Origin: Enchytraeus crypticus
Lineage: Eukaryota; Annelida; Clitellata; Enchytraeida; Enchytraeidae
Reading direction: 5' to 3'
DNA: 64,000 nucleotides
NCBI GenBank assembly: GCA_905160935.1
Contig: CAJHZI010000302.1
Span: 248,001 to 312,000 of the forward strand
The notes under the pieces were generated by a model, which was not told the origin of the DNA, did not search any database, and saw only the letters and a list, made by a program, of their open reading frames with translations. Within the stretch, counting starts at the first letter, position 1. The number at the start of each line of letters is the position of its first letter. The translations under genes and the position numbers were made by a program. Positions 9,301-12,300 of this stretch are shown here, piece after piece.

Positions 9301-12300
9301 TTTACTGAATGAAATGCCCAACCAAATTATGCTAATGTGTGCTAGTACGAGACTGTGTTTGACAGAAATTCATTTATACGAATGGCAACACTACAGAACA
9401 TTAGAACTACAACAACAAAACAACCTAACTTAAACCAACCACCTCAAAAAACAAAGATCAAAACATGTAAAAGATTTTGACATTAAAGTTATGCTATGTA
9501 TGATGGTTTTTTTATATTGTAGTGTTTCTTATTATGTGCATTTTATTGTATATTGCTTGTTTTACTGTAACTGATGTAAAGTAAAGAGATGCCTCTGCAT
9601 GATATACTCAATTAAACATTAAAAGCGCTAAATAGTTAGAGACCTTGAAGAACTGATGAGCCTTGACTTGATGTGCACCCTTATAGCCGAGCCGCTTTGT
9701 AGGATCTTTAGTTAGTAGGGCTTTAATGAAACTTATAGCAACCGGGGAAAACAATGACGACATCATCGGCTCAGCATGCAGAATGCGTCTATAAAACAAA
9801 AGCATAAAAGACAAATACTAATACATATAAAAAATTCAAATACCTCAATTAATACACAAGTAATTAAATATAATGAGTTTCTATAAATTAAGAGTTTACA
9901 CACTGACAATAACAAACATGACGCTAACAATCTCTCGAGACAAAAGAAACTTCACTGCATTTAAGATTTCATTGTGACTTTGAGATGTGTGTCAAAAAAT
10001 ATTAGTTAAACTTTCCATATATACATGTAAATTGTACAACGCATATACGAGAGCATTAGTTTATCAAAAGCTAATCTAATTAAATATAAACGATCGAAGA
10101 TATTTGGTCTTAAAAACATAATAAAAAATGAAGTGGACGCACTTGGAGATATCCGACTGAGTGTTTTTCTCTCCCTCAACTGTGAATGGCGAAGCACCGG
10201 TCAATAGTTCATAGGTCAACACACCCAGTGACCACCAGTCAACGCACTAATCAATCAATCAACACATCAATAGTTCATAGGTCAACACACCCAGTGATCA
10301 CCAGTCAATGCACTGATCAATCAATCAATAGATCAATAGTTCATAGGTAAATACACCCAGTGACCACCAGTCAACACACTGATCAATCAATCAACAGATC
10401 AACAGATCAATAGTTCATAGGTCAATGCACCCAGTGACCACCAGTCAACACACTGATCAATCAATCAACAGAGGATAATAATAATAGACAGTCCAAACCC
10501 GCAGTAAACAATTTAATTTTTAAAATCAAATGGTATAAATCCTATTCGTCTGTGTCTATTGACTACACTGGAACTACCTCTAACCAAACACAATAAGCAA
10601 CACAGTGGAAACAATAACTTTTCAATATATAATCAAACCAATAAAAATGTGGCTTACATAAACATATCCTTAATGTTATTATTAGTAATTTGTTACCACA
10701 TCACCAAAAAGTCTTATTCCATAATCTATGTCATCGCAACTGCTTTTGCAATTGGAGTTCGTGATGGGATTTAATGCCATTAAGTTATCTTTATAATTTA
10801 ATACCTACCATCACAGACCTAGGGTCAGGGTAATAATTAGAGGTGAGGAGAAGAATAAATTAGGACCATGTCAGTAAGAGCAATTCAGCAATAAGTTCAA
10901 AAGTGATCTAAGTCTTTAATGCAGCCTTTGTCTTGAAAAGATTTGGCTTAGTGCATTTCTGAAATGGTTTCTCACTCTCTTCCTCTTGTAATTGATCCTC
11001 ACTGTGGTGACCCCGGACACAGCACAGGTATATCAAAAGATGTATCAAATTCAAAAGACTGCAAGATAAAACAATTTCTATAGTGCTAAGATTCTGAAGA
11101 TACACTGTCACGAGGCATTTAAAGACGTTTAACTGTTCATGTGTACTGAATCATCAAACTAGCATATAAAGAAGAAATTAAACTTACAAAATCGTGCCCA
11201 GTTTTGTTTCCACTGACCAATTCAGGTGCCATGTATTCTATTGTGCCACAGAATGAGTAGGCACGCTGATTCTGTGAGCAACACATAAAAATAAATAAAT
11301 TAATTAATTAATTAATAGCTAAATTGTCTCTGATGTTTTGCCAACTAGCACGTCCAAGGTATATATCCTATTCACAGACTACTTTACTTAAAAATGAACA
11401 TTCTATTAATCAAATGGTTTTCCCTTTCATTCTAATTTATGAGTCAACAAAAAATACTTCTTACAAATATCGAAAATATGAAAACAAAATCAAATACCTC
11501 AACAAAGAACTTATTTATCAAAATAACTCATATTATCAAAAAAATCAACTGTCATAAACAAAATTACTTTTAAAGGATGAATTTCTGCAATAAGAGAAAT
11601 TACTTAAAGATCGTAGACAATATAGAAAGCATCTAACTTCTAAAAGATTTAGAAAAGATCAACTATAACTAACATCGGAAGTAGTTAAATTTTAACGTTT
11701 ACAACCTACATATTTTTTATACGGCGATGTCTATTTCCAAAATGGTTTAAATTTAAATATCTTAATTCAAGATATTTATTTCTTTATTGCAATCATTGGA
11801 ATTGAAACCTAACAAAGCATTACTTATATATATATTTTGCAAGGGTTAGAGTAAACAAAATGACTATCAATAAGAATATCCTAAAATATGTCTCGAGTAT
11901 CAAACTTAACACCAAACCTTGAGAATAATTTTAAAATCATTATAACGTTGAACAATGGACACACATTGTTATGAATTTTTTACCAAATACTTGTCTCCCA
12001 CAAGTATTTGGTAAACATTAATTCAAACATAAATTAGGTAGTTTACATCCCAGAGTTTTGAATTAGCTAGATGACCCAATAACAAAACTTTTATGAAATT
12101 TAAAAATTAATTTATTACTACCACACATATATGCTATAAAAACTTACCGTATCAGCTGGCAGAAACTCTTTACTCAAACCGAAGTCAGTTAGAACAATAT
12201 GACCATCTGAATTGAGTAGAATATTTTCCAACTTAATATCACGATAGATAATGCCCAACTGCAAATAGAGTAACGGCATTGTATTTCAGAAAATCAATCC

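Follow-up and report, generated by a model that had tools for sequence, protein, structure and literature searches.

Why does an intron carry several copies of the acceptor at its own end, and does the cell use these decoys or merely put up with them? The question is raised by a 64,000-nucleotide stretch of the Enchytraeus crypticus genome, hereafter the window, in which a preliminary description had noted repeated acceptor-like sites ahead of one exon of an MSK gene and had suggested that they either set MSK output by poison splicing or are simply tolerated. Our analysis favours the second reading: the decoys are most likely tolerated mutational debris and not a regulatory switch. We assign a probability of roughly three in four to the view that the array is a boundary minisatellite of the kind termed 'mirage', whose extra acceptor copies are spliced out with the intron under no visible selection.

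The acceptor arrays of the MSK gene

The MSK (RPS6KA5-like) gene lies on the minus strand, where 16 coding exons were mapped from position 16058 down to the exon starting at 332. The closest solved structure to the spliced N-terminal kinase fragment is human RPS6KA5 (1vzo, E = 1.9e-120). The exon-9 donor and the exon-15 acceptor and donor of MSK, together with a few POLR1A boundaries, were placed manually against the first choice of the solver. The exon behind the array had been numbered 7; it is the sixth that could be mapped, and the higher number is possible because the first mapped exon begins at an acceptor.

The intron between the donor at 11188 and the exon start at 10246 is 941 nt long; all three copies of the acceptor and exon start lie in its final 226 nt, at intervals of 74, 66 and 66 nt. 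This tandem arrangement, reported in the preliminary description, is visible in the sequence and was recovered by Tandem Repeats Finder with a period of 66 and 4.0 copies, the real exon start included (Table 1). The described difference in acceptor motif also holds, with TCAG preceding all three decoy starts and TTAG the real one. The copied coding stretch is shorter than the ~60 bases first proposed, comprising 46 nt (to ..GAACTATTGA) with 2–3 differences per decoy. When compared with its own intron, the first 45 nt of the exon scored 80, against a maximum of 20 for 36 other introns.

Splicing in silico from the upstream exon led all three decoys to an in-frame stop after 4 to 17 codons, as had been anticipated. 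The truncation would be milder than the predicted loss of most of the first kinase domain: the products are predicted to retain 181–194 of the 260 residues of the mapped fragment, about 70–75% of the mapped first kinase domain preceding the early stops, and to miss the fragment's final quarter to third together with the whole second kinase domain.

The possibility that the decoys are weaker acceptors was rejected. In a matrix derived from 35 other junctions of the window, they scored 5.6–6.1 bits and the real MSK site 5.9 bits, and with decoys as strong as the real site some mis-splicing is likely. Two AGs outside the array, at 11058 (9.2) and 10579 (8.5), scored higher than the acceptor at 10246, so the matrix alone would not choose the real site. 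A mobile element as the source of the array was likewise rejected, since a DNA search of the assembly returned one identical locus, which was the array itself, and otherwise 67–75% matches that we take to be TGAT-rich repeats. The same search of this one assembly revealed no second copy or second haplotype of the locus.

Table 1 Coordinates of the acceptor arrays and associated exons in the MSK gene.
Feature	Position in window	Strand	Details
Upstream MSK exon	11188..11271	-	Its donor, after 11188, is the partner of the real acceptor of exon 10143..10246
Boundary minisatellite	10201..10472	-	4 units of ~66 nt, of which the final one is the working acceptor and exon start; Tandem Repeats Finder
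Decoy 1, most distal	10407..10456	-	TCAG acceptor; exon-like start at 10452; 17 residues, then predicted in-frame stop
Decoy 2	10333..10382	-	TCAG acceptor; exon-like start at 10378; 17 residues, then predicted in-frame stop
Decoy 3, nearest to real exon	10267..10316	-	TCAG acceptor; exon-like start at 10312; CIDW, then stop
Real MSK exon, sixth mapped	10143..10246	-	TTAG acceptor at 10247-10250; donor after 10143
Possible older, diverged copy of the 13454 exon start	13663..13690	-	Behind the top-scoring AG of its intron (11.6 bits)
Second boundary minisatellite in MSK	13450..13623	-	TGTAG acceptor and exon start; the real exon begins at 13454, its decoy copies at 13532 and 13590
Real MSK exon downstream of second array	13339..13454	-	

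A second array of this type precedes the MSK exon that starts at 13454, which scored 38 in its own intron compared with a control maximum of 23. Its decoys (13532 and 13590) scored 8.4 and 10.2 as acceptors versus 7.0 for the real site, and three further AGs in the same intron, one of them at 13690, scored 10.2–11.6. The stretch behind the AG at 13690 is possibly an older copy of the exon start, a weak candidate read by eye from one alignment. The units of the two arrays measure 58–74 bp. Across the introns mapped in the window (15 in MSK and 22 in POLR1A), 2 of the 37 exon starts, those at 10246 and 13454, had copies in their own intron, and no exon end did.

Exon-including arrays in MSK sit at acceptors, except for a 20-bp tandem duplication across the donor of the first mapped exon (15969-16007), the second copy of which has no GT. 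A further array of 21-bp units occupies 1.7 kb (5152-6884), most of a 2-kb MSK intron, and stops 16 nt short of the acceptor. Intron 14 of MSK (window 2336 and 1290) begins AG/GTTTGTTG, and the next exon as set begins AAG/GTTTGCTG, so that the two ends of the intron share a short direct repeat; such a repeat is what intron gain by tandem duplication would leave, although it could be due to chance. In POLR1A, a short coding-like stretch occurs twice in the list of reading frames for one intron (36284-36590).

Copies and tandem arrays at other splice sites

The genome (524 Mb in 802 contigs) was searched for kinase-domain exons, which gave 137 exon matches; 70 loci were fetched and 74 matches used, with edges at domain ends excluded. 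When the window and the kinases were pooled, nearby copies of the exon edge were found at 14 of 88 acceptors (12/51 in the kinases and 2/37 in the window), 2 of 92 donors and none of 88 exon interiors taken 90–135 nt into the exon. The edge finder had placed the sites of L016, L044, L046, the L015 donor and probably L083 on an array unit and not on the real site. These misplaced edges are kept in the pooled counts (14/88 and 2/92), whereas L044, L046, L083 and L015 are dropped from counts of clear exon sequence made by eye, which stand at 11/88 acceptors versus 1/92 donors (Fisher p = 0.002). The clear acceptor cases comprise the two in MSK plus L016, L022, L049, L054, L057, L068, L076, L077 and L082. 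L044 and L046 have acceptor-like array units that contain hardly any exon sequence or none, and the case of L083 is not clear-cut; at donors, L040 has two copies of the last ~55 exon bases and L015 copies only ~9. By set, pooled and clear acceptor cases numbered 2 and 2 of 14 (L009–L038), 5 and 3 of 18 (L039–L058) and 5 and 4 of 19 (L064–L083). A feature special to MSK was therefore rejected, the same structure being present at several other kinase genes.

Three more loci (L013, L035 and L036) have boundary copies by eye and stand outside the acceptor counts, as each match starts where the domain does. L035 and L036 are paralogous kinase exons, 85% identical, with decoy acceptors at the same boundary in 5 and 2 adjacent copies, respectively, and L035 has a sixth copy further up that lacks the AG. 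Copying fades with depth into the exon: 45-nt segments starting 0, 20, 45, 60, 90 and 120 nt into the exon had copies at 7, 4, 1, 1, 0 and 0 of 32 kinase acceptors.

The rate of boundary copies is uneven between gene sets. A myosin sample (12 exons of 81 matches) had copies at 0/12 acceptors and 0/12 donors, and clear cases in the kinases (9/51) differed from the window and myosins together at p = 0.05. The kinase rate may be inflated, since profile matches are able to extend into a decoy. In a cross-locus control, in which a segment of one kinase locus was compared with the flank of another, 5 of 992 pairs matched. Random intronic segments, with low-complexity sequence included, had copies nearby in 16/160 cases upstream and 9/170 downstream. 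Since random segments have copies at a similar frequency, a hotspot is not proved by the exon-start rate alone, and that rate is not clearly above the one in these generally repetitive introns.

The position of tandem arrays provides a stronger test of a hotspot than this copy rate. Over 204 edges, 36 array ends called by Tandem Repeats Finder fell 0–49 nt intronward of the splice site, plus 16 arrays straddling it, some of which reflect edges misplaced on array units; later 50-nt bins held a mean of 7.3 ends, so that the first bin has about five times their frequency (Poisson p = 2.4e-14). The peak in the first 50 nt is present at acceptors and donors alike. The second kinase set and the myosins alone gave 9 array ends versus 2.27 per later bin (p = 0.00059), under a protocol fixed beforehand and on data not unseen, as the array ends of that kinase set had been counted once earlier. 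Within the window, 13 of the 19 arrays in mapped MSK and POLR1A introns have an end no more than 25 nt from a splice site versus 2.35 expected when arrays are placed at random within their own introns; 8 do so at acceptors (1.18 expected) and 5 at donors (1.17 expected). This permutation left out the arrays at 16273-16389, upstream of the first mapped MSK exon, and at 40659-40755 and 51466-51520, in the POLR1A region outside the mapped introns. Of the 22 POLR1A introns used, the donors at 31290 and 31938 are a few bases off in the array, copy and control counts. Arrays that start 2–15 nt past donors of MSK and POLR1A exons lie at 2573-2886, 1014-1122, 37037-37409 and 39714-39778.

Runs of TGAT were found in the last 60 nt of introns in 14/88 cases on the sense strand and 0/88 on the antisense strand, compared with 1–3 of 88–92 at the other places tried. 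They were commoner at acceptors with copies (5/14) than at the remainder (9/74, p = 0.04), and these T-rich runs may seed some of the duplications. The motif TTGAT resembles a branch-point motif.

These patterns bear on a reading in which a process coupled to transcription or splicing makes splice junctions active hotspots of tandem duplication, with the decoys as its by-product. The pile-up of array ends at acceptors and donors and the bias of exon-including copies towards acceptors both point in this direction. The similar copying of random intronic segments weighs against it, and low-complexity intron ends, such as those with sense-strand TGAT runs, could seed slippage with no link to splicing. 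We consider this reading doubtful; it concerns origin only and is compatible with a tolerated boundary minisatellite.

By translation, the genes of the mitochondrial contig C802 are ordered nad3-nad2-cox1-cox2-atp8-cox3-nad6-cob-atp6, which we take to be the Lumbricus order. The E. crypticus genome paper describes the mitochondrial genome as having essentially the Lumbricus gene order (PMC8460440). Broken COX1-like matches in contigs C361, C424, C796, C373 and C166 are perhaps nuclear copies of mitochondrial DNA.

Fate and probable origin of the decoy acceptors

If decoy acceptors were either harmful or useful, their AG dinucleotides should be expected to fare differently from the sequence around them; the comparison between AG and exon-derived bases is a fair one because constraint acts on the real AG as it does on the real exon. 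The AG is retained in 25 of 29 decoy copies from 13 acceptor arrays, and in 3/3 of those before 10246. Fifteen loci were scanned, of which L044 and L077 yielded no copies, the L077 anchor probably lying on a copy and not on the real exon. Identity to the real sequence was 0.914 for AG bases, 0.888 for exon-derived bases and 0.682 for intron-derived bases. With 53/58 AG bases and 515/580 exon-derived bases kept (the latter when copies are chosen without the column being scored), p was 0.66, a value to be read as coming from small numbers pooled over loci, with copies within an array not independent. Within these few copies there is no sign that decoy AGs are purged or maintained.

The result weighs on the proposal that the decoys act as poison splice sites, being used part of the time so that truncated MSK messages are degraded and MSK output is thereby set. 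The sequence is suited to such a role in that the decoy acceptors score like the real one, are transcribed ahead of it and are each predicted to lead to an in-frame stop. The same structure is, however, present in other kinase genes; AG bases are, within small and non-independent numbers, not detectably better kept than the exon part of the decoys; and amphioxus mirages seem, from RT-PCR, to splice normally (PMC3087553). The suggestion that the array could set MSK output consequently gains no positive support, and we regard it as unlikely.

The decoys might alternatively supply the makings of a new intron or an alternative exon, through recruitment of a central copy as an exon under a model outlined for amphioxus globins (PMC3087553); the AG is intact in most copies, but all three MSK decoys hold stops when spliced from the upstream exon, which makes such recruitment very improbable here. 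An artefact of the hybrid Illumina/PacBio assembly is hardly credible: repeats are error-prone and one amphioxus mirage was, by the account in PMC3087553, aberrantly assembled in a draft genome, but several substitutions separate the array copies, the assembly search turned up no other copy of the locus and several independent loci show boundary copies.

The preliminary description proposed a minisatellite born across an exon/intron boundary. This origin is well supported, and the structure recurs at a second exon of MSK and in several other kinase genes. In this tolerated minisatellite, a segment made up of ~20 bases from the intron end and 46 from the exon start would have been duplicated in tandem until three copies stood upstream of the working one. 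The spliceosome would then mostly pick the copy joined to the exon body, presumably because it alone leads into real exon sequence with a donor close by, and the extra copies would be removed with the intron and decay under no visible selection. A bolder extension, which we offer tentatively, is that splice junctions are hotspots at which duplications start through a process of the 3' splice region (TGAT runs, maybe multiple branch points); it would imply thousands of decoy acceptors, an unusually discriminating spliceosome and an independent origin in amphioxus.

Such arrays place two to six instances of one acceptor side by side, with near-identical local signals, which constitutes a natural test of how the spliceosome chooses among several equal 3' splice sites. 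They also open a way to study what concentrates tandem arrays at splice junctions and to learn if the likeness between lancelet and annelid is convergent. In practical terms, the decoys could mislead gene prediction in genomes of this kind.

Comparison with known systems

In human IFI6 (6-16), a donor-side minisatellite of short units repeats the splice donor, and several of these sites are really used. Like the MSK array, it multiplies splice sites through tandem repetition at the edge of an exon; unlike it, the repeat lies on the donor side.

In intron gain through duplicated AG/GT sites (Rogers 1989; Gao and Lynch 2009, as cited in PMC3087553), splice-site-like sequence is likewise copied in tandem, but the outcome is a new intron, whereas the worm array enlarges an existing one. 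In the earthworm Lumbricus rubellus, likewise a clitellate annelid, the wMT-2 gene has copies of exon 4, one of them reversed, which are not described as a boundary minisatellite in the accessible passages of PMC12783039. The passages on repeats, introns, splicing and gene models of the E. crypticus genome paper contain no boundary repeats, and the paper nowhere uses the term minisatellite (PMC8460440). Among the literature matches listed, which mostly exclude subscription papers, there was no boundary minisatellite outside the cephalochordates, a weak negative.

The closest counterparts are the amphioxus mirages, described for Adh3, the globins BflGb6 and BflGb9 and TnC, with PGBD5 likened to them (PMC3087553, PMC3902484). 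Variation among haplotypes is known there, and RT-PCR suggested that regular splicing is undisturbed (PMC3087553). Amphioxus mirages and worm arrays are alike in being minisatellite-like duplications of an intron–exon boundary that affect either end of an exon, with many units keeping AG or GT; in E. crypticus the unit spans the boundary, most AGs are kept and both acceptors and donors are involved. Unit sizes overlap, at 10–160 bp for the mirages and 58–74 bp in MSK. The two differ in that the amphioxus cases are from a chordate and were reported gene by gene, whereas the worm arrays are from an annelid, occur in several genes and include exon sequence more commonly at acceptors. The MSK array itself is of the known 'mirage' kind, now found in a second phylum.
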